From positions 1 through 64,000 of the forward strand of contig CANMAW010000003.1 of NCBI GenBank assembly GCA_947495915.1: a stretch of 64,000 nucleotides of DNA, written 5' to 3'. The notes under the pieces are model-generated. The model did no database searches and had not been told where the DNA came from. It worked only from the letters and a program-made list of their open reading frames with translations. Below, one piece after another: positions 35,590-40,629 of the stretch (the first letter of the stretch is position 1; every line of letters starts with the position of its first letter). This DNA comes from Maribacter algarum (ex Lu et al. 2025) (nom. illeg.). Its GTDB lineage: Bacteria; Bacteroidota; Bacteroidia; Flavobacteriales; Flavobacteriaceae. Both the position numbers and the translations under genes were made by a program.

Positions 35590-36078
35590 ATGCAAAAAGA
35601 AGAAGCCTTTGTTGAACTAATTAAACAAAATGAAGGTCTTATTTTTAAAATTACCACAATGTATACAGATCATTACGATGATCAGCAAGATTTGTATCAA
35701 GACATTGTGTATCAACTTTGGAAATCTTTCGACTCTTTTAGATCAGAATCTAAAATTAGTACTTGGATGTATCGTATTGCGTTAAATACCGCTCTAACCC
35801 GCATCAGAAAAAAGAAACGCTTCGGTAATTCTGTTTCCATTGATCAAGTAATATTAAAACAAACCGAGAATTATAATCAAGAATTTGAAGAACGATTGAA
35901 ATTAGTTTACGCCCATGTGCGAAAATTGAATGTAGTTGAAAAAGGCCTCATTTTTCTTTTGTTAGAAGGAAAAAAATATGAGGAAATAGCTGAAATAACT
36001 GGACTTAGCCCAACAAATGTGGGAACCAAAATTTCAAGAATTAAACAAAAATTAAAACAACAAATTGTAAAAAAATAA
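35590..36078 (+). CDS. ECF-type RNA polymerase sigma factor
   Basis: The 162-residue protein has only sigma regions 2 and 4, as in extracytoplasmic-function sigma factors. Region 2 includes DDQQDLYQDIVYQLWKSFDSFRSESKISTWMYRIALNTALTRIRKKKR. Region 4 includes LNVVEKGLIFLLLEGKKYEEIAEITGLSPTNVGTKISRIKQKL with a helix-turn-helix. A GTG at 35539 would add 17 residues before the conserved N terminus (QKEEAFVELIKQNEG); I chose the ATG at 35590. A membrane protein starts 3 bases after its stop and is a likely regulator of its activity. Confidence 0.9.
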   Translation: MQKEEAFVELIKQNEGLIFKITTMYTDHYDDQQDLYQDIVYQLWKSFDSFRSESKISTWMYRIALNTALTRIRKKKRFGNSVSIDQVILKQTENYNQEFEERLKLVYAHVRKLNVVEKGLIFLLLEGKKYEEIAEITGLSPTNVGTKISRIKQKLKQQIVKK

Positions 36079-36081
36079 GCG

Positions 36082-36681
36082 ATGGAAATCGAAGAAATGA
36101 AAGCGCTTTGGTCAGATATGAGTAATCAGTTAGATCAACAAAAAAAATTAACAAATGACATCATCATGCAAATGACACAAGAAAAGTATACTAATAAATT
36201 TAAAACGCTGGCGAATTATGAAACCATAGGAGCATTCGTATGCTTTGCCATATTAATTTTTTTAATTCTAAATATTCACAAATTAGACACCTGGTATCTA
36301 TTGGGCTGCGGCATCGTCACGATGGTATTTATGTTCGTTTTTCCAGTTTTGACCCTGCGCTATCTAAGAAAAATTAAGCAGTTCGAAATCGTTAATAAAA
36401 ATTATAAAGAAGTTTTGGTTGGCTTTCACAAGGCTAAAGCAAACCTGCTCAACCTTCAGAAAGTTGGTGTATTTGCTAGTTTTATAGTTATTTTTACTTC
36501 TGCAGCGGTCTTTGCTAAAATATTCGATGACAAAGACTTTTTCATGGTAGAAAGAGGAGTGAAAGAATATCTGTTTCTAGCTTTTACACTAGTATTAGTA
36601 TTCTTCTTTTCTCGTTGGGGGTTTCGGGTCTACCAAAAAGTTGCAAACGCTGCTGAAGCTGTTTTAAAAGAACTAGAATAG
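36082..36681 (+). CDS. Membrane protein linked to ECF sigma factor
   Basis: The 199-residue protein has a short cytosolic N-terminal region (MEIEEMKALWSDMSNQLDQQ), a coiled stretch, and about four transmembrane helices (residues ~48-65, ~72-92, ~126-145, ~165-182). Proteins of this kind often sit directly after ECF sigma factors in Bacteroidota and may act as anti-sigma factors, binding sigma through the N-terminal acidic/aromatic region. No zinc motif of the classic anti-sigma family is seen. It begins 3 bases after the sigma-factor stop, so they are co-transcribed. Confidence 0.75.
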   Translation: MEIEEMKALWSDMSNQLDQQKKLTNDIIMQMTQEKYTNKFKTLANYETIGAFVCFAILIFLILNIHKLDTWYLLGCGIVTMVFMFVFPVLTLRYLRKIKQFEIVNKNYKEVLVGFHKAKANLLNLQKVGVFASFIVIFTSAAVFAKIFDDKDFFMVERGVKEYLFLAFTLVLVFFFSRWGFRVYQKVANAAEAVLKELE

Positions 36682-38454: not shown

Positions 38455-39258
38455 ATGAATAAGTTTATTAAAGGTAGCAAGCTAGCGTTGTTTAGCATGA
38501 CAGTGCTATTTGTATTTAGTTGTAGTAAAGATGATGAAGTTGACCAAATAGTTCAAGATCAAGTCGTAACCGCAACAGAGGTTCAAACTATCATCGCAAC
38601 AGACGACTATTCTAGTGCGGTAGACGATATTATTACCGACCTTTTTCAAAATGGAGAATCTTCAAAATCTTCAAAAAATGATTGTTATGTGACAACATAT
38701 TCAGATACCGGATATTCAGTAACTTTTGATAACTGTAGTTTTGATGACGGTGAAATCATTAACGGAAGTTTAGTGGTAACCTATAAAGAAGGTGAAGAAT
38801 CTTCAGCATTTACTGCAGCCTATAATAACTTAACTGTCGGCGATATTGCTATTAATGGTACACGAAGTTTTACCATAAATAGTAATTCTGAAGGAAATGA
38901 TATTTCTTTTGATATCGTAAGTGATATGAATGTAAAATTAGAGGATGGTTCTATAATCGAAGAAATGGGAAGTAAGAACTTTTCATTTGAATTTGACACT
39001 GAAAATTTTGAAGAAAGCGTTTTGATTATTGATGGGGATTGGACTGTTAAAGCCAATGGAAATACGTATACAGTGAATATTACCTCACCATTAAAAACAA
39101 ACTTCTTCAGTTGTGAACACGCATCTGAAGGTGTTATGAGTTTAAATAAAAACGGCCTAGCAGTTACCATTGATTTTGGAGATGGTACTTGCGATGATGT
39201 AGCTGACATGACCTATCCTGACGGAACAGTAGAAGAAATTAAACTAAGTGACATCTAA
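38455..39258 (+). CDS. Hypothetical lipoprotein
   Basis: The 267-residue protein starts with a lipoprotein signal (MTVLFVFSCSKDDE, Cys23) and an acidic stretch. A beta-rich body follows with repeated strand-loop units (VTTYSDTGYSVTFDNCSFDDGEIINGSLVVTY; FEFDTENFEESVLIIDGDWTV). Three to four scattered cysteines are present (CYVTT, DNCSF, FSCEH, DGTCDD), suggesting disulfides. The C terminus has YPDGTVEEIKLSDI. I do not recognise the family and see no enzyme motif. A terminator follows; the convergent micropeptide array shares it. Confidence 0.7.
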   Translation: MNKFIKGSKLALFSMTVLFVFSCSKDDEVDQIVQDQVVTATEVQTIIATDDYSSAVDDIITDLFQNGESSKSSKNDCYVTTYSDTGYSVTFDNCSFDDGEIINGSLVVTYKEGEESSAFTAAYNNLTVGDIAINGTRSFTINSNSEGNDISFDIVSDMNVKLEDGSIIEEMGSKNFSFEFDTENFEESVLIIDGDWTVKANGNTYTVNITSPLKTNFFSCEHASEGVMSLNKNGLAVTIDFGDGTCDDVADMTYPDGTVEEIKLSDI

Positions 39259-39283: not shown

Positions 39284-39316
39284 AAAGCCCCGATACAATG
39301 GTATCGGGGCTTTTTA
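39284..39316. terminator. Bidirectional terminator shared by lipoprotein and micropeptide array
   Basis: AAAGCCCCGATAC and GTATCGGGGCTTT flank a four-base loop, with T-rich tracts on both sides. It ends both the plus-strand lipoprotein transcript and the minus-strand array transcript. Confidence 0.9.
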
Positions 39317-39338
39317 ATAGGGTAGGTGGCGCTATAAA

Positions 39339-39425
39339 TTAGCGGTATCTTCTTTTGCTATTCCAGATATTACTTTTAGTATTTTCTGATGTTGATCTTA
39401 CTTGATATTTGTTTATAGTTTCCAT
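39339..39425 (-). CDS. Array micropeptide copy A (28 residues)
   Basis: This minus-strand frame reads METINKYQVRSTSENT then KSNIWNSKRRYR. The N-terminal part is polar and the C-terminal KRRYR is strongly cationic with an aromatic I-W-N turn. It is the last gene of the array, nearest the terminator. No signal peptide or known domain is seen. See the array finding for the copy comparison. Confidence 0.6.
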   Translation of the reverse strand: METINKYQVRSTSENTKSNIWNSKRRYR

Positions 39426-39478
39426 GATTGTTGTTTTTTGATTGTTGTTGATGATGATTGATGATTGAGATACAGTGA

Positions 39479-39565
39479 TTAGCGGTATCTTCTTTTGCTA
39501 TTCCAGATGTTACTTTTGGTATTTTCTGATGTTGATCTTACTTGATATTTGTTTATAGTTTCCAT
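39479..39565 (-). CDS. Array micropeptide copy B (28 residues)
   Basis: The protein is identical to copy A. The DNA differs at two positions, both synonymous: an AAT/AAC Asn codon and an ACT/ACC Thr codon. Preserved protein despite changed DNA is evidence of selection on the peptide. Confidence 0.65.
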   Translation of the reverse strand: METINKYQVRSTSENTKSNIWNSKRRYR

Positions 39566-39611
39566 GATTGTTGTTTTTTGATTGTTGTTAATGATAATTG
39601 AGATACAGTGA

Positions 39612-39698
39612 TTAGCGGTATCTTCTTTTGCTATTCCAGATATTACTTTTAGTATTTTCTGATGTTGATCTTACTTGATATTTGATTATAGTTTCCAT
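39612..39698 (-). CDS. Array micropeptide copy C (28 residues)
   Basis: It is the same as copy A apart from one change, AAC to ATC, which replaces Asn5 with Ile. The cationic C-terminal KRRYR is intact. Confidence 0.6.
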   Translation of the reverse strand: METIIKYQVRSTSENTKSNIWNSKRRYR

Positions 39699-39751
39699 GA
39701 TTGTTGTTTTTTGATTGTTGTTATTGATGATTGATGATTGAGATACAGTGA

Positions 39752-39838
39752 TTAGCGGTATCTTCTTTTGCTATTCCAGATATTACTTTTAGTATTTTCT
39801 GAAGTTGATCTTACTTGATATTTGTTTATAGTTTCCAT
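39752..39838 (-). CDS. Array micropeptide copy D (28 residues)
   Basis: The protein is identical to copy A; the DNA differs by one synonymous Thr codon change (ACA to ACT). The same frame stays open upstream to 39961, but that read-through covers the spacer and the opposite phase of the neighbouring ORF, so the start is placed at 39838, as in the other copies. Confidence 0.6.
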   Translation of the reverse strand: METINKYQVRSTSENTKSNIWNSKRRYR

Positions 39839-39875
39839 GATTGTTGTTTTTTGATTGTTGATGATTAATAAAATT

Positions 39876-40004
39876 TTAAAATTGTGACCGGTATTCAATT
39901 TTTTTTGTTTTAGACTTCTCGTCATACAGTCTATCTGTACTCCAGCCAAAGCCAAATCCAAAATATATTCGAGGTCGTAATTGATGTTGGTGTAAAGTTC
40001 TCAT
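39876..40004 (-). CDS. Array micropeptide E, diverged 42-residue cousin
   Basis: It reads MRTLHQHQLRPRIYFGF, then G-F-G-W-S-T-D-R-L-Y-D-E-K-S-K and a basic end K-K-I-E-Y-R-S-Q-F. The head M-x-T-L-x-x-H-Q-x-R resembles member F (M-D-T-L-S-K-H-Q-K-R), but the Gly/aromatic middle is unlike the 28-residue members. It has the same leader type and sits between F and D. Confidence 0.5.
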   Translation of the reverse strand: MRTLHQHQLRPRIYFGFGFGWSTDRLYDEKSKTKKIEYRSQF

Positions 40005-40073
40005 GATGATTGTTTTTTGATGATTGATGATTGTTTTTTGATGATTGATGATTGATTTGTTTTAGTATAGATC

Positions 40074-40160
40074 TTATCTATATCTTCTTTTGTTGTTCCA
40101 GATGTCACTTTTAGAGTTCTCTGTAAATTGTCTTTTTTGATGTTTGCTTAAAGTATCCAT
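40074..40160 (-). CDS. Array micropeptide F (28 residues), promoter-proximal diverged copy
   Basis: It reads MDTLSKHQKRQFTENS, then KSDIWNNKRRYR. Length, the N-K-R-R-Y-R end and the IWN turn match copies A-D while much of the rest differs, which defines a family M-(E/D)-T-x-x-K-x-Q-x-R ... E-N-x-K-S-x-I-W-N-x-K-R-R-Y-R. It is the first gene after the candidate promoter. Confidence 0.6.
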   Translation of the reverse strand: MDTLSKHQKRQFTENSKSDIWNNKRRYR

Positions 40161-40208
40161 GTATATATATTTTGTTGTTAATAATTGTGTTATATCTAGA
40201 AGACGTCT

Positions 40209-40216
40209 CAAAACTA
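40209..40216 (-). promoter_or_regulatory. Candidate promoter of the micropeptide array
   Basis: On the minus strand TAGTTTTG fits TAnnTTTG, with a TTTTT tract about 20 bases upstream in place of the -33 TTTG. Transcription would start near 40202 and give a leader of about 40 bases before member F. Confidence 0.5.
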
Positions 40217-40588
40217 ATTTTGTTACAGTACTATGTATAAAAAGGTACTATTTTATATATTTTTTAACACATTAAAATTTACAACCAATTGATTTAAAGG
40301 TGATTATAATTTTATACTTTTTTAAAAATTTTGAAGAAACTAATTTTTAGTTTGAAAATAGCAACCTTTTTATGTGAGTTTTTTACTAAATAGTGCAGGT
40401 AATACAAGTTTTATTGAATAGTAAATTCTAAACAATTGATTTAAACTATTACAATGAAGTACTAAACCATCAATGACAAAGACATGTTTTACAAACGATA
40501 ATAAACTATTCTACTATTTCACTCAAGGTTATCTCAACTTTCTGTTTAAGAATATTCCTATTTTATTAACTTACCTAAAATTCTCGCT

Positions 40589-40629
40589 AGACTAGTATTA
40601 TGTTTCACACTCTACTATAATACTAGTCT
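40589..40629. promoter_or_regulatory. 13-bp perfect inverted repeat before DUF1080 gene
   Basis: AGACTAGTATTAT (40589-40601) and its exact reverse complement (40617-40629) flank 15 bases. It ends 18 bases before the start codon and has no T run, so a leader hairpin or operator is more likely than a terminator. Confidence 0.5.

Follow-up and report, generated by a model that had tools for sequence, protein, structure and literature searches.

A tandem micropeptide array of Flavobacteriaceae and its putative link to PadR/PspC and ECF membrane-stress control

The question raised by this locus is whether six minute open reading frames lined up in tandem on one strand encode peptides at all and, if so, what controls them and what the peptides may do. 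The frames lie in a 64,000-nucleotide stretch of Maribacter algarum DNA (contig CANMAW010000003.1, positions 1 to 64,000; hereafter the window), for which a sequence-only reading had proposed that several micropeptides with cationic tails are encoded together in one short operon. We come to the same view of the operon and put the probability at roughly one half that these micropeptides are translated and serve as the output of an envelope-stress circuit built from PadR/PspC proteins and an ECF sigma factor. The regulation is supported by comparison of sequences, and we infer from indirect features how the peptides would act. The features of the locus are as follows:

39284..39313, minus strand: intrinsic terminator-like hairpin with a 13-bp stem and, on this strand, a T-rich tail
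39339..39425, minus strand: micropeptide A, 28 aa, class 1
39479..39565, minus strand: micropeptide B, 28 aa, class 1
39612..39698, minus strand: micropeptide C, 28 aa, class 1, Ile at position 5
39752..39838, minus strand: micropeptide D, 28 aa, class 1
39876..40004, minus strand: micropeptide E, 42 aa, separate conserved family (RP..YF..GFGW.TDR.YD)
40074..40160, minus strand: micropeptide F, 28 aa, class 1 (diverged)
40200..40227, minus strand: putative ECF-type promoter, TGTAAC (-35) ... CGTCTT (-10); same box before the ECF-DUF4252 sigma gene
40209..40216, minus strand: TAGTTTTG, the TAnnTTTG box of the sequence-only reading; promoter spacer, not conserved
40229..40247, minus strand: TACCTTTTTATACATAGTA, PadR-type operator-like site; right half exact, left half degenerate, 11/14 half-site bases

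The array and its coding capacity

All six frames exist where the sequence-only reading had placed them. Its description of A to D as near-identical 28-mers is borne out, since over 88 nt these copies, which lie 133-140 nt apart, are 97-100% identical to the reference copy; F is a diverged 28-mer (76%). The hairpin that it had noted after A is present as well (39313-39284), and a convergent gene without Pfam match (38455-39258) faces this end of the array. E had been counted among the relatives of the other copies: Its frame is real, but it lacks the aromatic-basic end and belongs to a separate conserved family, which comprises six members from the genus plus two from other loci and has M1, L4, P11, G18, G20, T23, Y27, and D28 invariant. 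On the other side of the locus, a perfect 13-bp inverted repeat (AGACTAGTATTAT/ATAATACTAGTCT, window 40589-40629) directly precedes a 3-keto-disaccharide hydrolase gene.

The 28-mer family is widespread in Flavobacteriaceae. Matches were found in 6 of the 14 genomes of the genus, own genome included (E <= 1), and reached E 4.2e-10 in the 5 others, more than expected by chance. In a sample of the whole family, 108 of 397 genomes had matches (own included, E <= 0.1), at least 56 of them two or more by a hand count among the matches listed, where also just a single match with internal stops was seen (G364). Some genomes carry several separate matches, as in G018 (contigs C3, C4, C14, and C16) or G030 (contig C5 at 71882 and 126008). 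In a sample of the order, the class-1 profile matched 11 of 395 genomes, all within Flavobacteriaceae. When 41 peptides were aligned over 29 columns, M1, W21, N22, K24, R25, and R26 were invariant, though choosing the members by their tail has lowered the variation in that part. Many arrays are followed by a peptide of around 44 aa, and most of those aligned end in W.G.KRYAH. As for the neighborhood, 10 of 12 wide loci of relatives have, close to the array, a gene for a lysine-rich protein that we take to be of the cold-shock type, and this recurrence suggests that the locus is inherited vertically. Only 23 of 89 loci have an ExbD-like motif downstream in the same orientation, so this gene is not a general part of the system; together with the arrangement in the window, where the array ends in a terminator and then a convergent gene, this speaks against a leader peptide or attenuator, which we rejected.

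The family is also undescribed, as had been suspected: We found no match to a described protein family in Pfam, NCBIfam (queried with the window peptides only), PHROGs, PADLOC, or the PDB sequences (profile of class 1 only) and no earlier description of these peptides in open-access PMC text. Weak hits were limited to PHROG 30125 (E 0.028) and DUF1496 (E 0.2, under its cut-off), and AlphaFold gave no confident fold for E (mean pLDDT 58) or class 2 (mean pLDDT 67). An upstream ORF (MHSTVT) that we took to resemble a spurious frame of tRNA regions turned out to be translated promoter, and ARAGORN found no tRNA in 35 loci, so that a link to tRNAs was discarded.

Evidence that the frames are kept as protein comes from their substitution pattern. 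Over 129 distinct class-1 coding sequences, pN/pS was 0.48 (0.23 in the tail), with 0.78-1.31 in the five other frames, and arginines 25 and 26 are retained while all six codons are used. This set had again been picked by its tail, which lowers variation there, and the test was therefore repeated blind to any motif, with ORFs of predefined lengths that lie no more than 900 nt from one of 80 promoter sites. Lengths of 28 (82 ORFs), 37 (48), and 44 aa (28) stood out, the antisense strand was flat, and 58 of the 69 sites with 900 nt available had two or more ORFs of these characteristic lengths; a further 38 sites yielded the same lengths (32, 26, and 11 ORFs, respectively). In this test, pN/pS was 0.52 for 28 aa and 0.47 for 37 aa, with 0.85-1.31 in the two shifted frames, whereas the 44-aa class is weakly constrained (0.73 versus 0.89-0.95 in shifted frames). 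Frameshifts or stops in relatives would have spoken against a coding function, but a nucleotide profile recovered 160 copies of the 28-residue class from 115 partly overlapping loci and the frame is intact in 159, the other one being partly masked by N. An early stop was seen in one copy of the 37-residue class, the first class-2 copy of L099, which has 24 aa and lies at a contig end. Judged by these codon-level comparisons, the 28-mer frame is under purifying selection, and a noncoding repeat was rejected.

A composite promoter with an ECF-type box and a putative PadR-type operator

The TAnnTTTG box upstream of F had been read as the promoter of the array. The string exists but sits between the -35 and -10 elements of a conserved ECF-type promoter, and among related promoters a box at the equivalent place was found in none of 80 and, in a further set, in 3 of 38; with just 3 of 118 in total, we rejected a housekeeping promoter. 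Loci chosen by their peptides instead share TACTWTGTTATACATAGTACTGTAACA, a spacer, and then TCGTCTAT or close forms, and TGTAAC-N14-18-CGTC is present in 34 of 35 of them, the reversed pattern in none. In the window genome, the same TGTAAC...CGTC box precedes the ECF gene of an ECF-DUF4252 operon (L074), as it does in 30 of 30 loci of relatives that were read; the sigma gene itself was found in 34 of 34 genomes tested. The array promoter thus resembles that of the ECF gene itself, which places the array in the predicted regulon of an ECF sigma factor. The ECF box alone is not specific, since its exact form TGTAAC...CGTCT occurs 11 times in the own genome and the reversed pattern 7 times.

Some of these further occurrences, and one absence, are recorded here as separate observations. 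Two successive genes for small secreted-looking proteins (L072:2625-3858, G000:C2) each stand behind their own TGTAAC...CGTCT box and might also be under the control of this sigma factor. Elsewhere in the window genome (L075:1606-2392, G000:C1), an ECF box precedes a gene whose product looks secreted and contains an I-E-x-I-E-D/E-E-V ... FDTS-like stretch. Another ECF sigma gene lies around 4 kb from the array beside a gene for a 199-aa partner that has no Pfam match (window 35590-36681), and this one is without the box.

Just upstream of the ECF-type promoter, the arrays carry a palindrome that also precedes the DUF4870-PadR-PspC operon, including the one of the window genome, and whose consensus is TACTATG-N5-CATARTA. 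In the window genome (L070), hits to PF03551, PF04024, PF22571, and PF22744 reveal that the PadR gene adjoins a PspC/Toastrack gene; a 48-aa ORF stands first in this operon (L070:2358, G000:C4), and none alike is listed for 30 relatives. At least 12 of the 14 half-site bases are found before PadR in 29 of 30 loci of relatives, followed by a housekeeping-like TATATTTG box, while four scrambled palindromes reached 12 half-site bases in 1 of 120 tries. A close PadR homologue is present in 34 of 34 relatives, and as both PadR-PspC and the ECF gene occur in all 34 genomes tested, their presence or absence gives no link to the array.

The operator of the arrays is more variable. Among the 35 peptide-chosen loci, 27 have at least 12 of 14 half-site bases, the window and five others have 11, and two have 9; L034 and L044 have no palindrome. 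A degenerate left half characterizes all or nearly all loci of the genus and many arrays of 37- and 33-residue peptides. A strict pattern of 20 bases, drawn from the sites seen, was searched in 30 genomes and found at 52 distinct places (reversed pattern: 2), which by eye, with palindromic double rows merged, were assigned to 28 PadR operons, 23 arrays, and one unrelated stretch (L319). Since the pattern was written from sites at these very loci, it finds them by construction, and only its scarcity elsewhere is informative. In 22 of these 30 genomes, which do not include that of the window, the site before the array conforms to this pattern, and a palindrome search of the own genome at two mismatches was not special (25 rows versus 15 for the reversed pattern). 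Taken together, the array appears to share the operator of the PadR operon and would belong to its regulon, with a site that is degenerate on the left in the window.

The ECF-type box joined to the PadR-type operator forms what we call the composite promoter. Its pattern occurs in at least 118 stretches of a collection of species genomes, under names of genera that we take to be Flavobacteriaceae, of the family itself, or only at the rank of Flavobacteriia, Bacteroidia, or Bacteroidetes. Intact micropeptides of several classes follow 110 of the 118 sites among the matches listed; WN.KRR-type peptides do so at 49 of the first 80, and other classes include 37-mers ending like SKRAQWAQYRNFNR, 33-mers ending in SSKRRYF, and approximately 40-mers ending in YWNSKRRF. 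The other sites have a shortened copy alone (L099), a protein of 152-189 aa in place of micropeptides (L109, L137, and L165), no clear peptide (L108), or a sequence that ends within 120 nt of the promoter (L118, L184, and L190). By eye, the proteins of L109, L137, and L165 are like the secreted-looking L075 protein. A slightly looser pattern was present in 151 of the 397 family-sample genomes (with no match of the reversed control among those listed) and in 3 of 295 genomes of a class sample, two of them within Flavobacteriaceae; in the third (L287), no micropeptide follows among the ORFs listed. The loci of the promoter scan and those chosen by peptide are not independent sets, since some places among L003-L045 occur again in the scan. 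Two composite promoters per genome were seen in L031, L162, and G094, in the latter around 1 kb apart on one contig (C11:17252 and 18289). Sequence comparison shows that the frames are kept as protein and amplified in tandem and that their promoter joins an apparent ECF-sigma promoter to the putative PadR-PspC operator.

Candidate roles of the peptides

In the mechanism that we favor, PadR would repress the array together with its own operon and come off the DNA once the PspC/Toastrack protein signals a disturbed membrane, upon which the ECF sigma factor would read the array promoter; two envelope signals would thereby be combined in the manner of two keys. The peptides would remain cytoplasmic and dock in high numbers at the inner membrane surface or a membrane partner by virtue of their net charge (around +5 to +7, from six example peptides) and of a constant aromatic-basic C-terminus that is preceded by a polar stretch of variable sequence. 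They might thus play the part that PspA plays elsewhere, and their copy number would set the dose. Peripheral binding to the membrane or a partner at high dose is the reading that we infer from these features.

Under the same operon and control, the peptides might instead use their basic-aromatic tail to attach to RNA or ribosomes and so tune translation or the stability of RNAs under stress. Small basic peptides with an invariant W-N-x-K-R-R would suit this role and so would the lysine-rich neighbor, but the gene of the latter lies outside the operon, control is shared with membrane-stress genes, and the sequence profile of class 1 has no similarity to any PDB chain, ribosomal proteins included; we consider this unlikely. 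We give still less credence to peptides that act as feedback ligands by docking on PadR, PspC, or the anti-sigma factor to reset or hold the stress circuit: A variable stretch followed by a short constant motif at the C-terminus would fit, as would an operator common almost only to the PadR-PspC operon, yet up to five copies are not obviously needed for feedback.

Secreted peptides often have cationic ends and are often encoded in tandem by near-identical copies, as in this array, which would agree with peptides that are exported or act on neighbors as bacteriocin-like, signaling, or adhesive molecules. This is improbable in our view, since the same tail has been kept long and not diversified, PADLOC, PHROGs, and Pfam gave no match, and inspection of the ORF list by eye (34-46 kb) revealed neither signal or leader nor processing, modification, or export genes. 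On these grounds, with Pfam run on four proteins, a bacteriocin or RiPP precursor was rejected, and the earlier suggestions of neighbor inhibition and surface adhesion are left unsupported. Least of all do we expect the RNA to be the product, with the repeats as a regulatory RNA and the frames incidental. A short independent transcription unit with a terminator would be compatible with it, but pN/pS, the frame tests, the intact copies, and arginines kept despite six available codons all speak for protein, and Rfam gave nothing at gathering score (best E 0.13).

Returning to peripheral membrane or partner binding, a wider generalization to Flavobacteriaceae is conceivable, though we hold it only tentatively and rather doubt it as a whole. 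Arrays of fast-changing, dosage-tuned micropeptides would be the effector arm of a two-key membrane-stress response in bacteria that mostly lack PspA, and the classes of around 28, 33, 37, 40, and 44 aa, which stand behind one promoter and share little but the start and a mostly aromatic-basic C-terminus, would make up a new functional class, one of peptides that bind a partner or attach peripherally to the membrane. The locus matters as a large micropeptide family of abundant marine bacteria that is unmatched in the libraries searched and whose control logic can be read from sequence. Their PadR-PspC system would gain a concrete set of targets, and the peptides are candidates for the agent that acts at the membrane in bacteria without PspA.

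Comparison with known systems

MgrB and AcrZ of enterobacteria are very small, regulated stress proteins that were missed by annotation; they are encoded by single genes and have a membrane helix. The array peptides are likewise very small, apparently regulated, and overlooked by annotation, but they are polar, cationic, and arranged in tandem. With the SM6 system, the array shares CGT in the -10 region, and an ECF/anti-sigma pair is among the SM6 targets; in the available part of its description, the targets named are type IX secretion and other genes, and a micropeptide array is not mentioned there. A precedent for the combination proposed here is LstR-SigC of Listeria, where one operon is under both a PadR repressor and an ECF-like sigma factor (PMC6624303). 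The target in that case is an FtsW/RodA-like protein, whereas here it would be micropeptides in another phylum, with dual control predicted from sequence.

The classical PSP system differs by its effector PspA/IM30, which was present in just 2 of 30 genomes and absent from the other 28, by a search that was positive in 9 of 14 control genomes. Closest is the PadR-PspC-Toastrack branch of the PSP/Lia systems, whose groups are proposed to be membrane-stress sensors (PMC11237479): Both have PadR (PF03551), proteins with PspC, LiaI-LiaF-TM, and Toastrack domains, and an operator before their operon. In the genomes compared here, PspA is mostly missing, and the HAAS domain is found in the PspC of the window genome only below cut-off (E 5.5e-4; 20.7 bits versus a cut-off of 27). 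In addition, the array appears to share the operator of the PadR-PspC operon, and the output would be tandem micropeptides under an ECF promoter.
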